DNA of 64,000 nucleotides, taken from the NCBI GenBank assembly GCA_012510495.1, contig JAAZHX010000292.1, positions 21,491 through 85,490 of the forward strand, given 5' to 3'. The notes beneath the pieces are model-generated. The model was not told the origin of the DNA. It worked only from the letters and a program-made list of their open reading frames with translations, and ran no database searches. A program made the translations under genes and the position numbers. This DNA is from Smithella sp. Lineage in GTDB: Bacteria; Desulfobacterota; Syntrophia; Syntrophales; Smithellaceae. The first letter of the stretch is position 1. Each line of letters starts with the position of its first letter. This document shows, piece after piece, positions 7,526 to 18,903 of this stretch.

Positions 7526-7679
7526 AAACGGCATTTTTCGTTGACACCGCGCGCGTTGTTGTGACCATAAATAAAAAGACAATCAACGGCCGGATCTGAC
7601 AGGTCTGGCCGAACAACCTGATCGCGCTTTATAACACCTGATCGATTACCGCAGCCGGTCCATCCTGATCAGAACGGCA

Positions 7680-7715
7680 AGGGGCGCGGGGAGAATCTTC
7701 CCGCGCCCCTTTTTC
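7680..7715 (+). terminator. Rho-independent terminator
   Basis: AGGGGCGCGGG-GAGAATCTT-CCCGCGCCCCT followed by TTTTTC. Confidence 0.85.
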
Positions 7716-7802
7716 AATGCCTATTCCCGGCATCCTTTTTTCCGGCAGGTGGGCAATGAAAAAACCGTCCCACTCCCCGTCTTTCTTCCCGGCTGAATAT
7801 CG

Positions 7803-8936
7803 CTATTCGATCGTAATCAAATCCAGCGGGTATTTCGTAAAGACTTCCGCTTTCCCGGGCTTTACGCACACAACATATTCCAGCGCAAATATGCCGCAAT
7901 TTGTTTTGAGATCATAGATATGCGCGCAGGGGACGATCATGACGTTTTCCTCGAGGATGTAGTCGTCGTCGCGATAGAAGGTCGGGGGCAGGTGGCCGGT
8001 GCCGATGCCGTGGCCCAGGGGAACGGAACCGAAATCCGGGTAGCCGCCCTCCGCGAGACGGCTGATATACCATTGCTCTATCTCCCTGGTGCTCGCGCCG
8101 GGCACGAACATAGCGTTCAGTTCCTCGATAACCGGCCTAAAGAAGTCCATCATCTTCATGTAGTCCTTCGATTGTTTCCCGAACGCCAGCGTCCGGAAGC
8201 TGTCTGTCCGGTATTCGTGCCAAACGGGATGCAGGTCGTAATAGATCCTGTCTCCGTTGACCAGTATCCTGTCGGTCGGCAGGTGATCGCCGTAACCGAG
8301 CTTGGAGGTGAAAAGGCATTGATTCGGCGTGTAGTAATAAGAGGCCCCCAGCCTCCGCATTTCGAGCTCGGCATATCCGATCAGCTCCGCCTCGGTCACC
8401 CCGACCCGTGCGTTTTCGATGATCATGCTGGTGCCTGCGTCGGCGATCGCACAGGCGCGGCGGATCAGCTCCAGCTCCTCCTCATCTTTTTTCATCATGA
8501 CGTCGTCGATCATCCGTTCGCCGTCCACGAGGGTGGCATCCGGCAGATTCTTCAGCAGATGGTCGTACATCAGGTGTTCGATGGACGGCATCTGCACGGC
8601 AACGACCTTGTTGTGGCATTCGCGCTCCTTAAGGATCGTGACGACCGTGTCCAGGAAGCCGACGGGCTCGATCCCGGCATACGCGGGCATCCAGAAGCGA
8701 ATGTCCCGGATGTAGCCCTCCGTGATGAGCCTCCCCATCTCCGCGAGCGACACCAGGAGCGTAGGCTCCTCCTTCGCCCAAAGGAAAAGGCAGTTTCCGA
8801 GATTGAAGTCGTTGTGGAAAGTCCCCGCAACGTAGGAATACTTCTGCTGATGCGTCAGGATCATCACATCAATTCCTTCTTTCTGCATGGCCTGCCTGAC
8901 TTTTTCTGCGTTTTTCCTGAAGAAAGAATAGTTCAT
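7803..8936 (-). CDS. M24-family (Xaa-Pro peptidase/creatinase-like) metallohydrolase
   Basis: Creatinase N-like region then YYDLHPVWHEYRTDSFRT, LGHGIGTGHLPP and C-terminal pita-bread fold motifs. Confidence 0.8.
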   Translation of the reverse strand: MNYSFFRKNAEKVRQAMQKEGIDVMILTHQQKYSYVAGTFHNDFNLGNCLFLWAKEEPTLLVSLAEMGRLITEGYIRDIRFWMPAYAGIEPVGFLDTVVTILKERECHNKVVAVQMPSIEHLMYDHLLKNLPDATLVDGERMIDDVMMKKDEEELELIRRACAIADAGTSMIIENARVGVTEAELIGYAELEMRRLGASYYYTPNQCLFTSKLGYGDHLPTDRILVNGDRIYYDLHPVWHEYRTDSFRTLAFGKQSKDYMKMMDFFRPVIEELNAMFVPGASTREIEQWYISRLAEGGYPDFGSVPLGHGIGTGHLPPTFYRDDDYILEENVMIVPCAHIYDLKTNCGIFALEYVVCVKPGKAEVFTKYPLDLITIE

Positions 8937-10534: not shown

Positions 10535-10721
10535 TTGTTTTTCCTTTCCCCCGGGTGAGATCTCTGCCGGTTTTCAAAATAGTTTGATAAAAAGACGGTT
10601 TGCGCTTTACACATGCACGGAGGCATTAAATAACACAAATAAAGACTTGTCAATAACGAGGCAAACATGATGAATGCTAAAAAGTATGTCTTTCGGTTAT
10701 CTGTCTGCCGAATCCTGGAAG

Positions 10722-10871
10722 ATATTCAGATTCGGCTTCCCTTATTTCATCCAGGAAGTTTATAATCACAAACGTCTTCATCCCTCTCTGGGATACAGAC
10801 CGCCCGTGGCATTGGAAGAACGGTTCATAAACCAAAAACCCTGGCCGACTGCTCTAACCCAATCTGTCTAA
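10722..10871 (+). pseudogene. C-terminal relic of an IS3-family (IS150-like) transposase
   Basis: FIQEVYNHKRLHPSLGYRPPVALEERFINQ; typical end of IS3 OrfB integrase core without the DDE N-terminal part. Confidence 0.8.
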
Positions 10872-11041
10872 CCCCAGGGGTGCAGTCCATCGTTTATAGA
10901 GCGTTTAAACGAGTGGTTTCGGTAAAACTTAATCTTTATAAGGGTTGACACATTAAAAACAGGAAGGTATATTCGCCACATCAAGCAGTGATGTAAATAT
11001 GCCTTTGAAATAGCGGACATGCAAAACAACGGACGGGTGAA

Positions 11042-13927
11042 ATGAAAGCTCCGCAGGAAATCATTGCTCTTGTTGAACGCTTCGATCAAAATCTTCAAGC
11101 CTATCAATCCGGCAAATATAACGAAACGCAACTCCGGCGGGAATTTATCGATCCCTTTTTCAAGGCGCTGGGCTGGGATGTAGAAAACACATCCGGTTAC
11201 GCCGAAGCCTACAAAGATGTCATTCACGAAGACGCGATAAAAATCGGCTCTGCCAGCAAGGCTCCGGATTACAGCTTCCGCATCGGCGGCACGCGCAAAT
11301 TTTTTGTTGAGGCAAAAAAACCTTCGGTCAATATCGCCGAGGATATCGGTCCCGCCTATCAGCTCAGGCGCTATGCCTGGTCGGCAAAACTGCCCCTTTC
11401 CATTCTCAGCGATTTTGAGGAATTCGCCGTTTATGACTGCCGCGTCAAACCGGATAAATCCGATAAAGCATCCACGGCGCGCATCATCTACCTTAAATAC
11501 AAAGAATACCTCACCCGCTGGGAAGAAATAGCTTCTGTTTTTTCTAAAGATGCTCTGATGAAAGGCTCTTTCGACAAATACGCGGAAACGACCAAAACAA
11601 AAAGAGGCACAGCAGGCGTTGACGCGGCTTTTCTGTCTGAAATCGATTCCTGGCGGCAGGCGCTCGCGCAAAATATCGCCCTGCGCAATCTCAGTCTCAC
11701 CCAGCGGGAACTCAACTTTGCCGTAACTAAAACGATTGACCGCATTATTTTTCTGCGCATTTGTGAAGACCGGGGCATCGAACCCTACGGCCGGCTTATG
11801 GCGCTGCAAAACGGCGCGGACGTTTATCCGCGCCTGACAAAATATTTTTATGACGCCGATGATAAATATAACTCCGGCCTGTTTCATTTCAGACGGGAAA
11901 AAGATCGCTTTGAGCCGCCCGATGATTTGACTTTAACTCTTTCCGTTGATGATAAAATTTTAAAAGATATTTTCAAAAGCCTTTATTATCCCGAAAGCCC
12001 GTATGAATTTAGCGTTTTGCCCGCCGATATTCTCGGGCAGGTTTATGAACAGTTTCTGGGCAAAGTGATTCATCTCACGCCGGGGCATCGCGCCAAAGTG
12101 GAAGAAAAACCGGAAGTGCGCAAAGCGGGCGGCGTTTATTATACACCGACATATATTGTCGATTATATCGTCAAAAACACTGTGGGCAAACTTCTGGAGG
12201 GCAAAACCCCCAAAGCGGCGAAAAAACTACGCATCCTTGATCCGGCCTGCGGTTCCGGCTCTTTCCTTATCGGCGCGTATCAATATCTTTTGGATTGGCA
12301 CAGAGACAAATACATTGAAGACGGCGCGGAAAAACACGCCAAAGGCAAAGACCCAAAGCTTTACCAGAGAATCCGCAATGAATGGCGGCTGACCACGGCG
12401 GAGCGCAAGCGCATTTTGTTAAACAACATCTACGGCGTGGATATCGACCCGCAGGCGGTGGAAGTAACCAAGCTCTCGCTACTGCTCAAAGTTTTGGAAG
12501 GAGAAAGCGACGAGACAATCAAATCAGCTTTCAGATTATTCAACGAGCGCGCCCTGCCCGATTTGGGCAACAACATCAAATGCGGCAATTCGCTCATCGG
12601 CCCGGATTTTTACGAAGGCCAACAGACCAGCTTTCTGGACACGGAAGAAATGCAGCGCGTCAATGCCTTTGATTGGGAAAAGGAATTTCCGGAAATATTC
12701 AAAGCGGGCGGCTTCGACACCGTCATCGGCAATCCGCCGTATATTGATTCTGAGTGGCTTACAAAAACAAATCCTGAACTCAGAAGCTATTGTACTAAAA
12801 ACTACCAAAGCGCAAAAGGAAATTGGGATATCTTCTGTGTTTTTGTGGAAAAGGGCCTTGAATTATCGAGGCAATATTCAAGCCTGATTACCCCAAATAA
12901 GTTACTTTCGGCAGATTATGCACGTGCTGCAAGAAATTATATGGTTTCGAACCACTCAATTATAGTCATTCGTGATTACTCCAACATTCCTGTTTTTCCA
13001 GTTTCTGTTTATCCAATTGTATATGTGGCAAAAACAAAAACAACAAATTTGTCATTATCTTATGAATTGATGAAACAAACCGAGGGGATTATTAAGATAG
13101 AAAGGTCTCAATCAATTGATCGGGTAAAGTTCAATAAGGTTGACGGGAATAGTTGGACTTCTCTTTTCGGCGGCAAGGACAACACCTTTTTGGAAAAATT
13201 TGAACATTCATGTATTCTTCTTGATGAAATTGCCTCAGTAAATGGAGCAGCAACTGTATCTGAAGCATACGAATACAAAGAATATATTGCCGACGAACCA
13301 ACAAAGGAAGATTATTTCACTTTTGTAAATACGGGAACAATTGACCGCTATGCTGTCTTATGGGGTATTTATCCCACAACTTATATAAAAGCGAAATATA
13401 ACAGACCTATTATTCCAAGAAAATTTTGGCATAAGATGTCAGAACGTCGGCTCCAGCAAGCACGCTCAGAAAAAATTATTGTAGGAGGAATGAACAAACG
13501 ATTAGAATGCATTTATGATAGTGGAAATATTATTGCGGGTAAATCTACTTCAATAATTATTTCTAATAAAGTAAATTTACTTTATTTACTTGGTTTACTT
13601 AACAGTAAATTATTGAGTTATTTTTATCGCACAACTTTTTCAGGGCTATCTTTGCAAGGCGGATTTTTAAGAATTGGGCCACCGCAATTAAAAATACTAC
13701 CAATTAAAACTGTTGAAAATACCGATCCTAATTTTCAAAAGATGATTAACCTTGTAAAACAAATGCTCAATTTAAACAAACAACTACAAGAATCCAAAAC
13801 CGACCATGAAAAAACGTTAATCCAGCACCAAATCGACGCCATCGACAACCAAATCGACAAACTGGTTTACGAACTCTACGATTTAACTCCCGAAGAAGTA
13901 GAAATTGTAGAAGGAATATTTTTATGA
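11042..13927 (+). CDS. Type IIG restriction-modification enzyme (Eco57I-like; nuclease + N6-adenine methyltransferase + specificity region)
   Basis: N-terminal PD-ExK-like PDYSFRIGGTRKFFVEAKK, motif I DPACGSGSFLIGAY, motif IV GNPPYI, C-terminal IDNQIDKLVYELYDLTPEEVEIVEG. Confidence 0.92.
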   Translation: MKAPQEIIALVERFDQNLQAYQSGKYNETQLRREFIDPFFKALGWDVENTSGYAEAYKDVIHEDAIKIGSASKAPDYSFRIGGTRKFFVEAKKPSVNIAEDIGPAYQLRRYAWSAKLPLSILSDFEEFAVYDCRVKPDKSDKASTARIIYLKYKEYLTRWEEIASVFSKDALMKGSFDKYAETTKTKRGTAGVDAAFLSEIDSWRQALAQNIALRNLSLTQRELNFAVTKTIDRIIFLRICEDRGIEPYGRLMALQNGADVYPRLTKYFYDADDKYNSGLFHFRREKDRFEPPDDLTLTLSVDDKILKDIFKSLYYPESPYEFSVLPADILGQVYEQFLGKVIHLTPGHRAKVEEKPEVRKAGGVYYTPTYIVDYIVKNTVGKLLEGKTPKAAKKLRILDPACGSGSFLIGAYQYLLDWHRDKYIEDGAEKHAKGKDPKLYQRIRNEWRLTTAERKRILLNNIYGVDIDPQAVEVTKLSLLLKVLEGESDETIKSAFRLFNERALPDLGNNIKCGNSLIGPDFYEGQQTSFLDTEEMQRVNAFDWEKEFPEIFKAGGFDTVIGNPPYIDSEWLTKTNPELRSYCTKNYQSAKGNWDIFCVFVEKGLELSRQYSSLITPNKLLSADYARAARNYMVSNHSIIVIRDYSNIPVFPVSVYPIVYVAKTKTTNLSLSYELMKQTEGIIKIERSQSIDRVKFNKVDGNSWTSLFGGKDNTFLEKFEHSCILLDEIASVNGAATVSEAYEYKEYIADEPTKEDYFTFVNTGTIDRYAVLWGIYPTTYIKAKYNRPIIPRKFWHKMSERRLQQARSEKIIVGGMNKRLECIYDSGNIIAGKSTSIIISNKVNLLYLLGLLNSKLLSYFYRTTFSGLSLQGGFLRIGPPQLKILPIKTVENTDPNFQKMINLVKQMLNLNKQLQESKTDHEKTLIQHQIDAIDNQIDKLVYELYDLTPEEVEIVEGIFL

Positions 13928-14745
13928 AAGAAAATGACAAGTGCGATGAATCTTTGAGTGAATTTTTCAGACATTTGCAATTAGCAAGGGAACAACTAAA
14001 TAATAATCATCAAGCTATACGAAAAGCTCGCGCATTTATAATTGAACAATTGAAGAAGCTCAGTTTTTCGATAGAAAAATCAATAAGACCATTAATCCTA
14101 GGATTACAAAGAATTTTCAAAGAGCTTCCCCCGCGAACAAAAGAAGCTCTCATTTTGCTCGGTAAACATGGTTGGTACTTTGACTTACAAATGCCGCTTC
14201 CGAGCCTATGGGATTTAAAGGATTTGTTAGCAAATGGCAATATAGAAGAAGTTGAGAATATTTTAATAAAACATTTTGAAGATCAAATAGATATTATAGA
14301 AAAATCTATAATTGACAAGTTTCCTGAACGTAAAAAAATAATTACCGCTGCTTTCAATGCACACAGACGTCAAGAATATGAATTATCCATTCCTGTGCTC
14401 TTTGCGCAAACAGATGGAATCTGCAAAGAAGTGGTAGATCAATACCTATTTATGAAAATTAGAGGCAGAAGGATACCGCAAACAGCATTTTATGTCGAGC
14501 AAATTGCTGCTAATAAAATTATGATGGCATTCCTCAGCCCCCTTGCACAGACTCTTCCTGTTAATGCAGCGGAAAACGAGCGAGATGAAGGATTTGACGA
14601 ATTGAATCGGCATATGGTGCTGCATGGGCAGTCGCTGGATTATGGTAATAAAAAAAATAGTTTAAAAGCAATTTCACTGATAAATTATGTTAGTCATGTG
14701 CTTGATAAAAAACACTCATTGAATAAAGGTGAAGTTTCTTTTTAA
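13924..14745 (+). CDS. Uncharacterised 273-aa protein with HEPN-like Rx4H motif
   Basis: ATGA overlap with type IIG stop; C-terminal ELNRHMVLHGQSLDYGNKKNSLKAISLINYV, in which R-HMVL-H fits the HEPN RNase Rx4-6H pattern. Confidence 0.6.
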   Translation: MKENDKCDESLSEFFRHLQLAREQLNNNHQAIRKARAFIIEQLKKLSFSIEKSIRPLILGLQRIFKELPPRTKEALILLGKHGWYFDLQMPLPSLWDLKDLLANGNIEEVENILIKHFEDQIDIIEKSIIDKFPERKKIITAAFNAHRRQEYELSIPVLFAQTDGICKEVVDQYLFMKIRGRRIPQTAFYVEQIAANKIMMAFLSPLAQTLPVNAAENERDEGFDELNRHMVLHGQSLDYGNKKNSLKAISLINYVSHVLDKKHSLNKGEVSF

Positions 14746-14853
14746 TTGCAAAAAGTCGCGGCAAGCGTTGACAACCAAATCGACAAACTGGTTTATGAGC
14801 TATACGACTTAACTCCCGAAGAAATCGCCATCGTGGAGGGTGGCAGTACATGA
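14746..14853 (+). pseudogene. Stranded partial type IIG C-terminal tail (copy B)
   Basis: Frame starting TTG directly after TAA of upstream gene: LQKVAASVDNQIDKLVYELYDLTPEEIAIVEGGST*; matches tail of 11042..13927 gene (DNQIDKLVYELYDLTPEE identical; 50/54 nt identical). Confidence 0.9.
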
Positions 14854-17800
14854 GCAAAGACAATGAAACATTGATTCCTCAGAATATCCGCTCTTATTTT
14901 CATGAAATAGCAGAAAGACTTTGGTCAGGTCATGCAACAATAATGGTTGGTGCTGGTTTTAGTAGAAATGCGAAAAAGAGTGACCCAGCAAAAAAGGATT
15001 TCCCAACTTGGAACCAACTTGGAGATATCTTCTATAACAAAATATATGGGCACTGTCCAAGTGAGAAACATAATTATCTTAATGTCTTGAATTTGGCTGA
15101 TGAATTACAAGCCGCGTTAGGGCGACCAACTTTGGATCACATTCTTCGCAAGGAAATTCCTGATGAAGACCATGAACCTTCACATTTACATATCAAATTA
15201 ATGGAATTGCCATGGGTTGATATCTTCACAACTAATTATGATACTCTTCTCGAACGCGCATGTATTAATGTAACTTCCCAAAAATTCGATATCGTTATTA
15301 ATAAACAAGACTTGGTTTATTCTGAAAAACCAAGGATTATAAAACTCCACGGAAGCTTTCCATCAGAACGTCCATTTATCATTACTGAAGAAGATTATCG
15401 AAAATATCCAAAAAAATTCGCGCCTTTTGTAAATACTGTTCAGCAATCACTTTTGGAAAATACGCTTTGTTTAGTTGGTTTTTCTGGAGACGATCCAAAT
15501 TTTCTTCAATGGATAGGTTGGATTCATGACAATCTGGGAAAAGATAATTCACCCAAGATTTATTTAATTGGTTTATTAAACTTGTCTGACGCACAAAAGA
15601 AGTTGCTTGAACAAAGAAATGTTGTGTCTCTCAATCTTTCCTCTTTGCCAGGAATAGACGGTAATCATGAAAAAGCAATGAATACATTTTTGGATTTTCT
15701 TGCTTCCCAAAAAAAATCAGAGAAGAACATCGAGTGGCCAGGAACACAGAAATCATTGAGTCCCAAAGGTAATGAAGATAGCGTAAATCAACTTTTAGCA
15801 ATACTAAAAGAATGGAAAACTATTAGGAATGATTATCCTAACTGGATAATTGTTCCAGAAGATCGCCGTAGTGCATTATGGACACATACATTATTCTGGA
15901 TTCCTACTTTTAAAAGTATTTCCAGCCTTAGTATGCCAGATGATATAGAATTTTTATTTGAAATGAATTGGAGATTGGAAAAGTGTTTAAGTCCAATATT
16001 CAATAATATGATCGATGATTATGAAAAGATACTTAACCGATACAATCCATTTCCTGAAATAATAATCATAGAAGGAGCAATTAATCCAAAAAGCTTAGAC
16101 TATACGTCTTTGCCGTGGGAACGAATTAAAAATAAATGGCTTGAGCTTCATATTTCTATTATGCGTTTTTATCGAGAAGAAGGGTTCCTTGATAAATGGG
16201 ACACTATCAATGAAAAAATACAAAATATTTATCAATTTTTATCACCAGAATTGATTGCTAAGCTCCATTACGAACGCTGTTTGCACTTTTTGTTTTACTT
16301 GAAAATTTCTGAGGTAAGGTCACAAATCAAGGAATGGCCCGTAAACACTTCCCTTCCTTTATGGGAAGCGAAACGCGCTGGTATATTGGCCGAACTTGGC
16401 AATATTGAAGAAGCTGAAAAAATACTTGAAAATTCTTTGAGCTTTATCCGATCCCAATTAAATCTTGTCCCAATTTCACGTGATTATTCATGGGTATCCC
16501 AAGAAGCCTATGTTATGTCATTGTTTCAATATATTAAAGATGCACGTTCGTTCAGAGGCGAACAGTTTGAGGAACGACAAAAGATAAGACGAATTTTTAA
16601 TGAACGATGGAATGATCTTAAACAATATAAATGCGATCCATGGACCGAATTAAAACTTTTTGAAATTTATTTGGAACACGAAGCGGTTCCTGTTTCCAAT
16701 ATATCTCAAAAAAAAGAATTTGATATCGGACGCGTTACGGCGACACGACATTTCTCACGTGAAAATAAGGAGGCTGCTACTGCATATTCTTTTCTTCGAT
16801 ATTGTGAAGAAGCAGGCATGCCTTTTAAGATACCTGGTATCACGTATGGCAAAGGAGCGGCAAAAGGTGCAATTAAACGCATTGCAAATTATTCGCCATA
16901 TTGGGCTTTCGCTTCATTAGTTAGAATTGGTGATTCTAAAGTTGTTGATGAGATATTTAATCGCAAATCTATGGTGACGATGGACATATCCCAGGTGGAT
17001 CGCTTGATTGACCATTATATTGCGGCTATTGAGAGCATCTTTCCAGAAATCGAAATTGGCGATCGTTTTCACCAAGATAATTTTGCTATTGCTTTGGCTT
17101 CGGTAATCCCGGAAATTCTTTCCCGTCTTTGTGTTAAATGCTCAGGGAAAGCTAGGTTAAAATTATTAGCTTTTTTGAAGATTCTATATTCTTCAGATCA
17201 GAAAATCAAATTTACAAATGTTGCGCAATTTACAGAAAGACTAATTGGTTCGTTTTCAGAAGAAAAGCAATATAAACTCATTCCAAATCTGTTAAAGTTC
17301 CCTATATTAAGCAATCTCCATTTCTTGATAAAGAGAGAATTCCCAGAACCATTTCATTTCCTTTCAGTTGATAGCGAATTAATCACCGGCTATGATAAAA
17401 TCAAAATTGATCAGGATATTATCAGAGACCTGCTTCAGAAATTATATTCTACGATTAAGGAGGAAAGGAATAGAGCATTTCTCCGGCTGGAAAAGCTGTA
17501 TAGATTTAATCTACTTGATAATGAACAGGTTAAGAGTTTAGGTGTTGCCTTATGGAGTCAGATAAATGATAAATCAGGGTTTCCTAAAAATACTGATTTC
17601 TACAATTTTGCTTTCACTAAATTGCCCCACCCTGAAACAGTTGATCCAGTATATTTATTCAAAGAATTTGCTTTAAATGAACCTTTTCCAGTCCAAGGTT
17701 CAAATATAGGCCAAGGTATATCAATGACCGGAGGTAATATTCCAATATTTTATGAAATCCTTGGTGCTGCAGTAACAGGTATTGACTGGTCAAATGATGA

Positions 17801-18587
17801 AACTGTACAAATATTCAATAAATTAATTGAATGGTGGGATGCGGATAAACACTACTTAAAGGAAGATGCGATTTCCAATCCATTTAGTAATATTCAAGAT
17901 GAGTTCCGTGCCAGATTTTGGCACCTCGCTCCCATATTAGCCAATGTAATTGCACCGCGTCTATCCATTATGACTGATACCAATATTAAATCGACTGTAT
18001 CTCGCTTGCTAAATGAACTACATGAATATGAAATACCGTCCTTACGTGCGCATGTTGCTTTGGTGAATTTATTTCCAGATGACAAACCTCACTTATATTC
18101 AAAGATAGAAAACGCAATTAGCTCAAATGATCATTATAATATTGTTGACGCGATAGAAGCTATATGGGCAATTATTAAATCAGATAATGCATCATCCTTT
18201 GGAAAATCGGATATTGCTAATAGTCTGATCTTGGTGAGTCAACAGATTAAGTGGCGAAGGAAATTGGGGTTGGTTTCTTCCTTAAATCTAATGTCTAATA
18301 TTGTGGATATAACTCCTAAGTATCTGAGCAACATCCTGCTATCAGACATATTGATTGGGCTGAGTTTTTTAAGTAATGAAAGTGATCCTATAAACACAGA
18401 TATGGATACAGACATCGCAGATAAATTGGAATATAGAAAGCAGGCTGCATATTTAGCATACAGACTATACAGACATTTTTCCTGTAAGAGAGAAAACGTT
18501 CCTAAAGTTATTGCTGATTGGAAGGTCATTTGTACATCATTAAATGAATTTGCCGAAATTCGTAATGAATGGCTAGAAGTACATTAG
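14850..18587 (+). CDS. Large SIR2-domain protein (1245 aa), candidate DSR-like anti-phage NADase
   Basis: N-terminal TIMVGAGFSRNA, IFTTNYDTLLERA, IIKLHGSFPS, CLVGFSGDDPNFLQW (SIR2 NAD-binding/catalytic motifs) plus about 950 aa of helical sequence; ATGA overlap with copy B stop. Confidence 0.85.
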   Translation: MSKDNETLIPQNIRSYFHEIAERLWSGHATIMVGAGFSRNAKKSDPAKKDFPTWNQLGDIFYNKIYGHCPSEKHNYLNVLNLADELQAALGRPTLDHILRKEIPDEDHEPSHLHIKLMELPWVDIFTTNYDTLLERACINVTSQKFDIVINKQDLVYSEKPRIIKLHGSFPSERPFIITEEDYRKYPKKFAPFVNTVQQSLLENTLCLVGFSGDDPNFLQWIGWIHDNLGKDNSPKIYLIGLLNLSDAQKKLLEQRNVVSLNLSSLPGIDGNHEKAMNTFLDFLASQKKSEKNIEWPGTQKSLSPKGNEDSVNQLLAILKEWKTIRNDYPNWIIVPEDRRSALWTHTLFWIPTFKSISSLSMPDDIEFLFEMNWRLEKCLSPIFNNMIDDYEKILNRYNPFPEIIIIEGAINPKSLDYTSLPWERIKNKWLELHISIMRFYREEGFLDKWDTINEKIQNIYQFLSPELIAKLHYERCLHFLFYLKISEVRSQIKEWPVNTSLPLWEAKRAGILAELGNIEEAEKILENSLSFIRSQLNLVPISRDYSWVSQEAYVMSLFQYIKDARSFRGEQFEERQKIRRIFNERWNDLKQYKCDPWTELKLFEIYLEHEAVPVSNISQKKEFDIGRVTATRHFSRENKEAATAYSFLRYCEEAGMPFKIPGITYGKGAAKGAIKRIANYSPYWAFASLVRIGDSKVVDEIFNRKSMVTMDISQVDRLIDHYIAAIESIFPEIEIGDRFHQDNFAIALASVIPEILSRLCVKCSGKARLKLLAFLKILYSSDQKIKFTNVAQFTERLIGSFSEEKQYKLIPNLLKFPILSNLHFLIKREFPEPFHFLSVDSELITGYDKIKIDQDIIRDLLQKLYSTIKEERNRAFLRLEKLYRFNLLDNEQVKSLGVALWSQINDKSGFPKNTDFYNFAFTKLPHPETVDPVYLFKEFALNEPFPVQGSNIGQGISMTGGNIPIFYEILGAAVTGIDWSNDETVQIFNKLIEWWDADKHYLKEDAISNPFSNIQDEFRARFWHLAPILANVIAPRLSIMTDTNIKSTVSRLLNELHEYEIPSLRAHVALVNLFPDDKPHLYSKIENAISSNDHYNIVDAIEAIWAIIKSDNASSFGKSDIANSLILVSQQIKWRRKLGLVSSLNLMSNIVDITPKYLSNILLSDILIGLSFLSNESDPINTDMDTDIADKLEYRKQAAYLAYRLYRHFSCKRENVPKVIADWKVICTSLNEFAEIRNEWLEVH

Positions 18588-18651
18588 AATTATAAGTATT
18601 TATGAGAACAATATTTTAGAAAAATATTCCTGTATAAAAAGGGCTATATTG

Positions 18652-18726
18652 TTGCAAAACGCCAAAACCGACCATGACCAAACATTAATCCAGCGCCAAA
18701 TCGACGCCACCGATAATCAAAGGTAG
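18652..18726 (+). pseudogene. Stranded partial type IIG C-terminal tail (copy C), truncated
   Basis: LQNAKTDHDQTLIQRQIDATDNQR* matches LQESKTDHEKTLIQHQIDAIDNQ of the type IIG gene; homology stops where an IS-end-like sequence begins. Confidence 0.85.
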
Positions 18727-18727
18727 T

Positions 18728-18800
18728 GGTAGTGTAAAAGAATGTTCGCAATTTGATTTATTGTAGAGGGGTAGTGTCAAGAATCTTTCGCTTTTGTAGT
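18728..18800. repeat. Two tandem IS-end-like repeats
   Basis: GGTAGTGTAAAAGAATGTTCGCAATTTG (18728..18755) and GGGTAGTGTCAAGAATCTTTCGCTTTTGTAGT (18769..18800); related inverted copy at 42518..42550. Confidence 0.6.
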
Positions 18801-18903
18801 GGCAGTGCCCTCCGGGCTTGACCGGAAGACCGCTTTTATCTATAAGAAAACCGGCGAAAACTTCACGACGGAACAAAGAAGAAACGCAAAAGGAGCCGAA
18901 TTC

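Follow-up and report, generated by a model that had tools for sequence, protein, structure and literature searches.

Stranded 3′ ends of type IIG restriction genes bound candidate defence gene cassettes in bacteria and methanogenic archaea

Introduction

The gene-by-gene assembly of defence islands is an open question. It is raised in a concrete form by a stretch of 64,000 nucleotides from Smithella sp. (assembly GCA_012510495.1, contig JAAZHX010000292.1, positions 21,491 to 85,490 of the forward strand), referred to here as the window. In the window, an intact gene for a putative type IIG (hereafter IIG) restriction-modification (RM) enzyme is followed by two unrelated genes, and a piece of the 3′ end of the IIG gene recurs behind each of them. 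What are these stranded ends, called tails in the following, and do they have a part in placing the genes between them, called cargo? We propose, with a probability of roughly 70%, that the locus is an integrase-free gene-cassette array built on the IIG 3′ end, in which RecA-type recombination between tails would move modules of cargo plus tail behind a resident IIG gene. This reading is carried by the recurrence of tails, the preferential stranding of the 3′ end, the cassette form of the arrays, modules shared with constant junctions, and one pair of loci that differs by a single cassette.

The repeated tail in the window

The features of the locus are collected in Table 1. The product of the IIG gene is predicted from its domains to hold a nuclease, an N6-adenine methylase and a target recognition domain in one polypeptide, as expected of a IIG enzyme. 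Within this gene the tail match (tail A) lies at 13784-13915. A preliminary description of this DNA had reported a partial IIG tail after each of the next two genes, and had noted that both cargo genes begin at an ATGA overlapping a tail stop; both points were confirmed, the latter at 13924 and 14850. Copy B shares 85% of its nucleotides with tail A over 71 nt (14770-14840), and copy C shares 85% over 67 nt. The stretch of copy B between the residues LQ and DNQ does not match the tail. When the whole genome of the window was searched for the tail, three places were found, exactly tails A, B and C.

The origin of copies B and C was addressed by comparison with another species of the genus (G010). 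Over the 54 nt of DNQIDKLVYELYDLTPEE, tails A and B show 4 differences, every one of them synonymous, and it had been suggested on this ground that copy B came from a different IIG allele. The suggestion holds: the IIG tail of G010 is closer to B (94%) and to C (92%) than tail A is (85%). They are thus not fresh copies of A and fit an earlier resident allele, and a local duplication of tail A was rejected as their origin. The current IIG specificity, which carries tail A, probably came after tails B and C. A start shared by the stranded copies at TTGCAAAA, or LQ, had also been noted. It is not a general boundary: stranded tails in other loci begin at many positions.

Recurrence and form of tail arrays

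Loci fetched for comparison are labelled L and genomes are labelled G. A profile of the tail was run over 1.17 Mb of fetched loci and gave 206 matches of at least 25 bits, with 0 in the reversed sequence. Across 149 relatives, many genomes were found to carry several consecutive tails, and tail arrays recur throughout the phylum. A scan of GTDB contigs placed arrays in Planctomycetes, Chloroflexi, Verrucomicrobia, one Akkermansia record and methanogenic archaea. In total, 57 fetched loci have two to six tails on one strand; they belong to Desulfobacterota-type bacteria, Planctomycetes, Chloroflexi, Verrucomicrobia and methanogenic archaea, and only one locus has tails on both strands. The preliminary description had named confinement of stranded tails to this genome as an outcome that would reduce its model to local decay. 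They occur in many genomes and phyla, and the window is one instance of a widespread pattern.

The arrays have the form of cassettes. The segments between tails (n = 85) have a median length of 941 bp, and 42 of them contain exactly one gene of at least 90 aa. Cargo genes lie mostly on the strand of the tails (82 versus 21 on the opposite strand), and an ATGA is present at 45 of 191 tail stops. A plasmid or phage vehicle for the tail was considered and rejected: the tail had no match in 50,697 phage records, and 72,556 plasmids gave three partial matches, all haloarchaeal.

Cassettes shared between genomes

Is the same cassette met in different surroundings? In methanogens, L062 and L107 match over 1431 bp at 82%. 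The match runs from within one tail (in L062 a 3′ remnant) through the whole of the following tail, and the genes flanking it on both sides differ. A cassette with a RhuM/PDC-S05 gene stands in the methanogen loci L107, L067 and L062 next to three different upstream genes, always behind a tail or a tail remnant. Its gene starts in L067 at the same “GK-stop/ATGA” junction, as it does in L070, where it is fused to an IIG N-terminal piece. A more distant relative (48%) was found in the bacterial tail array L134. Loci from two genera, L042 and L047, have in common a cassette of 1280 bp at 92%. The archaeal loci L076 and L109 share a cassette of 89 aa (83%) and the downstream flank (85%), and L109 has one extra tail-bounded cassette of 235 aa between them. 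This difference may be a gain in one locus or a loss in the other; its ends are tails either way. As judged by these alignments, modules appear to have been gained or lost with their ends at the repeat in L076/L109, L062/L107 and L042/L047, which is a hallmark of the displacement arrays of rhs and contact-dependent inhibition (CDI) genes discussed below.

The preliminary description had proposed that modules of cargo and tail travel behind a resident IIG gene. The shared cassettes and the L076/L109 pair bear this out as far as gain or loss exactly at tails is concerned; the part that names recombination as the cause is retained here as a proposal. The portable unit is best redrawn as a cargo gene with its downstream tail, rather than a tail with the cargo that follows, because it is the former junction that is constant for a given cassette. 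The tail most similar to a stranded tail was found in another genome in 42 of 71 cases and in the same array in 22. In a test of shared DNA blocks, tails held about 18 of the roughly 100 left ends that were informative, where about 5% were expected; the test counts as support only, with few right ends available and many blocks being broken IIG bodies or plain synteny.

These data bear on a competing explanation, namely that homology-assisted illegitimate recombination anchored on the IIG gene brought in every cargo gene a single time, that no unit moves, and that all sharing is inherited. The varied truncation points of stranded tails agree with such one-off scars, as do the cassettes common to L033 and L044 (88% over 573 bp) and to L133 and L134, each of which is shared within one genus. 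The RhuM cassette, however, has different upstream partners in four methanogen genomes, the cassette of L042 and L047 spans genera, and exactly one tail-bounded cassette separates L076 from L109. We therefore consider one-off insertion unlikely, although it survives better than the other alternatives.

Recombinases and folded sites

A site-specific system is a slightly less probable source of the arrays. Here the tail would be the target of a recombinase, much as attC is for IntI, or as tRNA genes are for integrases that rebuild the 3′ end of the gene, and the size of the cassettes, their mostly single-gene content, their common orientation and their array form do resemble integron cassettes. 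Among the matches listed for 20 genomes, the 10 kb around the arrays are free of tyrosine recombinases, in a search that did not extend to serine recombinases or other enzyme classes. The only array contigs with a listed tyrosine recombinase are those of G221, where a Xer-like one stands 11 kb from the array, of G039, at a distance of 48 kb, and of the single-contig genome G274, at hundreds of kb. An integron integrase scored over the model cut-off in 12 of 20 array-bearing genomes, never on the array contig, and the other 8 had none over the cut-off at all; the genome of the window has none over it. Tail DNA folds with no excess energy (z −0.54; IIG body as a control, −0.50), so that the coding tail gave no signal of an attC-like folded site, a dedicated attC scan not being part of the analysis. 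An integrase-type island would combine a recombinase within the insert with a fixed crossover point; no tyrosine recombinase was listed within 10 kb (serine recombinases were outside the search) and tail start points are scattered.

As a separate observation, integron integrases do occur elsewhere in the array-bearing genomes G007, G009, G004, G033, G021, G039, G221 and others. Two cassette systems may coexist in these genomes.

Stranded tails versus decayed genes

Could the tails simply be what is left of tandem IIG genes, each with its own neighbour, that lost their bodies through deletion? Broken IIG bodies do exist near tails, and N-terminal remnants were found in L041, L051, L070, L108 and L110. 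The lengths of the remnants tell otherwise. The open frame upstream of a tail match measures 0-199 aa in 99 cases, 200-799 aa in 6 and at least 800 aa in 41; a remnant is either full or shorter than about 95 aa. Stranded homology starts anywhere within the last 95 aa and reaches the C-terminus in 89 of 99 cases. Within 51 genomes of the family, the tail stands on frames of less than 150 aa in 43 of 80 matches, a count in which a few lie at contig ends and the weakest matches may be chance. Other parts of the gene are seldom stranded in the same genomes: of 22 matches to the N-terminal 44 aa, 3 fall on a short frame, and of 43 matches to a central methylase piece, none falls on a frame of less than 150 aa, with one at 150 aa, in a comparison that used a profile for the tail and single sequences for both controls. 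Decaying tandem genes would leave pieces of every length, drawn from every part of the gene. The bimodal lengths and the rarity of N-terminal and central pieces therefore argue against decay, as does the identity of cargo-tail junctions in different genomes, and this origin, named at the outset as the alternative to a module model, is very improbable.

In some loci, an IIG N-terminal remnant and a tail do enclose cargo or a deletion (L041 3655-7315; L070 6390-6680; L051 about 7600-8400). In L070, a short match (IVEG codons) links the IIG N-terminus to the tail end just ahead of the RhuM start; the IIG body was thus probably lost there via short-homology recombination.

The poorest candidate is that repeats of the repetitive extragenic palindromic (REP) or miniature inverted-repeat transposable element (MITE) type adjoining the tails, rather than the tails, drive the rearrangements, since the palindromic GTAGGGGC...GCCCCTAC repeats and an element of about 110 nt that stand beside or inside tails in L033, L035, L044, L046 and L047 occur neither in the window array nor at the methanogen junctions that were read. 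The element of about 110 nt ends in GAGTGTCACTAAA and occurs with the REP/MITE-like repeats in several Smithellaceae-type loci, in some of which the tail is split.

A proposed role as a recombination arm

The proposal that tails recombine draws on the structure of IIG genes. The closest pairs of these genes match in the body (80-95%) and again in the last 130-300 nt (80-92%), but not in the recognition region between, which is the mark of domain exchange. The recognition region is exchanged between a body and a tail that are both conserved, so that the tail has the appearance of a right-hand homology arm in such exchange. In the proposed mechanism, the tail would serve as this arm when recognition domains are exchanged. 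A gene joined once to a piece of tail, by a single end-joining event, would be portable thereafter. One founding event of this kind per cassette would explain the variable 5′ truncation points, the junction then being inherited with the module. Recombination of the tail of a cargo gene with the tail of the resident IIG gene, or of another cassette, could lead to insertion, removal or swapping. Stacking would take a single crossover with a circular molecule of cargo and tail, and swapping would take a double crossover whose left arm is the IIG body or another tail. A cargo gene whose start overlaps a tail stop may be expressed through translational coupling to the preceding gene.

Several points weigh against this proposal. 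No recombination event was observed and no circular form was seen. With a length of 60-130 nt and an identity that is often no more than 70-90%, tails are a poor RecA substrate, so that events have to be infrequent, draw on close donors or involve longer arms. Clean evidence of an occupied and an empty state comes from one pair, L076/L109, and could equally be loss; some cassettes recur only among close relatives, which shared descent fits too. Part of the cargo is not defence (flavodoxin-like, a HXXEE membrane protein and unknowns). Most array loci come from metagenome-assembled genomes. It is very unlikely that chimeric assembly would produce the same tail-bounded junctions in independent genomes, and array L137 sits in a single-contig genome of 1.8 Mb (G274).

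A broader reading, on which we are evenly divided, is that IIG genes serve across domains as a platform for gene capture that needs no integrase. Stand-alone defence genes would be made into cassettes by the constant 3′ end, acting as a portable recombination arm, and one restriction gene would build an island behind itself by ordinary homologous recombination.

Cargo genes and the island in the window

The cargo of the arrays matched DSR2, RhuM/PDC-S05, an HEC-03B-like ATPase, 6A-MBL, TrlF, Ppl, AbiEii, ParE, MqsA, PIN, and Schlafen-type and YhcG nucleases, among others. A wide range of defence genes behind tails had been named as support for the module model; defence and toxin-antitoxin genes are indeed varied, but they do not make up all of the cargo. 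PADLOC matched 306 families in 78 cargo genes versus 57 in 78 size-matched control genes of the same loci, a comparison that counts families and not genes, in which 36 of the 57 control matches come from one helicase, and which is indicative only. Homologous genes of about 105 aa (MKPLDFIKSCI.. and MDALDFIKNHI..) were also seen directly 3′ of stranded tails in two different families of the order (L040 8541-8858 and L050 6754-7071, tail strand).

In the window, cargo gene 1 had no match in Pfam, PADLOC or NCBIfam. It has a conserved NRHMVLHG motif (HEPN-like RHMVLH, spotted by eye) that is kept in its one relative found, which is 60% identical and encoded in G042. The R-x4-H pattern suggests a HEPN ribonuclease, a suggestion that no family model confirms. 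Cargo gene 2 encodes a predicted DSR2, with an N-terminal SIR2 domain (Pfam SIR2_2) and a match to the PADLOC model over residues 9-1242 of 1245. These two genes were not found next to tails in relatives: DSR2 was found in 0 of 154 other genomes searched from the order, and the G042 contig with the relative of cargo gene 1 is free of tails.

The island that holds these genes is absent from close relatives. On the left, similarity to G012 ends at 10888; on the right, it returns at 18810, and similarity to G014 returns at 18813. The contigs of both end near the island edges, so that their content between the edges is only partly visible, and a complete empty site was not obtained. Just 5′ of the island, an open reading frame at 10674-10871 resembles, by eye, the C-terminal end of an IS3-type transposase. 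This stretch is also present in G012 and is thus older than the island.

Table 1. Features of the window locus, with repeat sites in related loci in the last row
Feature	Coordinates	Strand	Basis or content
Island without counterpart in the two closest relatives (G012, G014)	10889..18809, approximate	.	IIG gene, two cargo genes and stranded tails
Intact gene for a predicted type IIG RM enzyme, 961 aa	11042..13927	+	PADLOC REase_MTase_IIG, 685 bits; Pfam HSDR_N (residues 25-137), Eco57I (461-652), TaqI_C
Conserved IIG body (nuclease and methylase part)	11042..12744	+	95% identity to the G010 IIG gene (L049)
Variable target recognition region	12745..13757	+	No nucleotide similarity to G010 though both flanks match; TaqI_C at residues 767-888
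Tail A, conserved IIG 3′ end	13758..13927	+	82% to G010 across 159 nt; repeated directly by copies B and C
Cargo gene 1, 273 aa, no family	13924..14745	+	ATGA overlap with tail A stop
Tail B, stranded; begins directly 3′ of the cargo gene 1 stop, homologous portion from 14770	14746..14853	+	
Cargo gene 2, predicted DSR2 (defence-associated sirtuin 2), 1245 aa	14850..18587	+	ATGA overlap with tail B stop; PADLOC Dsr2, 1551 bits; NCBIfam Dsr2
Tail C, stranded; 5′ part only, ends after DNQ	18652..18720	+	
REP/MITE-like repeat sites	L033 8560-8880; L035 7410-7760; L046 3640-3950; L047 5800-6040	strand of tails	

Relation to known systems

The closest known parallel is the C-terminal displacement of rhs genes, for which Jackson et al. 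(2009; PMC2935791) proposed homologous recombination by way of circular intermediates, with core pieces that vary in length. The rhs and orphan CdiA-CT systems likewise have arrays of dissociated modules 3′ of the host gene, each with a piece of its conserved sequence of variable length, and pieces of this kind are found in the arrays behind IIG genes. The two differ in what is repeated and what is carried. In rhs and CdiA, a conserved core is repeated 5′ of a variable toxin tip, and the cargo is the host gene's own tip with an immunity gene. In the IIG arrays, a restriction enzyme supplies its constant 3′ end as the repeat, and the modules are unrelated, complete, stand-alone genes rather than alternative ends of the host gene.

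Other systems share parts of this picture. Integron cassettes, including those of chromosomal integrons that store defence genes, are also short, mostly single-gene and co-oriented, end in a repeated element, and carry many defence or unknown genes; the IIG arrays differ in having no integrase found at the array and no folded attC-like site found, and in a repeat that is protein-coding RM sequence. Target recognition domain exchange in type I and IIG RM genes has the same variable recognition region between conserved arms. Its known form swaps specificity inside the gene, whereas here the right arm also brings whole downstream genes. Defence islands at integration hotspots are similar in their clustered defence genes and quick turnover. 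They are usually ascribed to phages, integrases or recombination between flanking core genes, whereas here every gene has its own repeat derived from a defence gene. An earlier description of cassettes bounded by IIG tails was not found in the literature searched, whose coverage left out subscription journals and preprints.

Concluding remarks

What would it mean for defence islands if tails are recombination arms? The growth of an island would become legible from its sequence, with each tail marking a past event and its boundary. New defence genes could be found between tails, in bacteria and also in methanogens, in which few defence genes are known. The exchange of restriction specificity would then be tied to the acquisition of other defences too.

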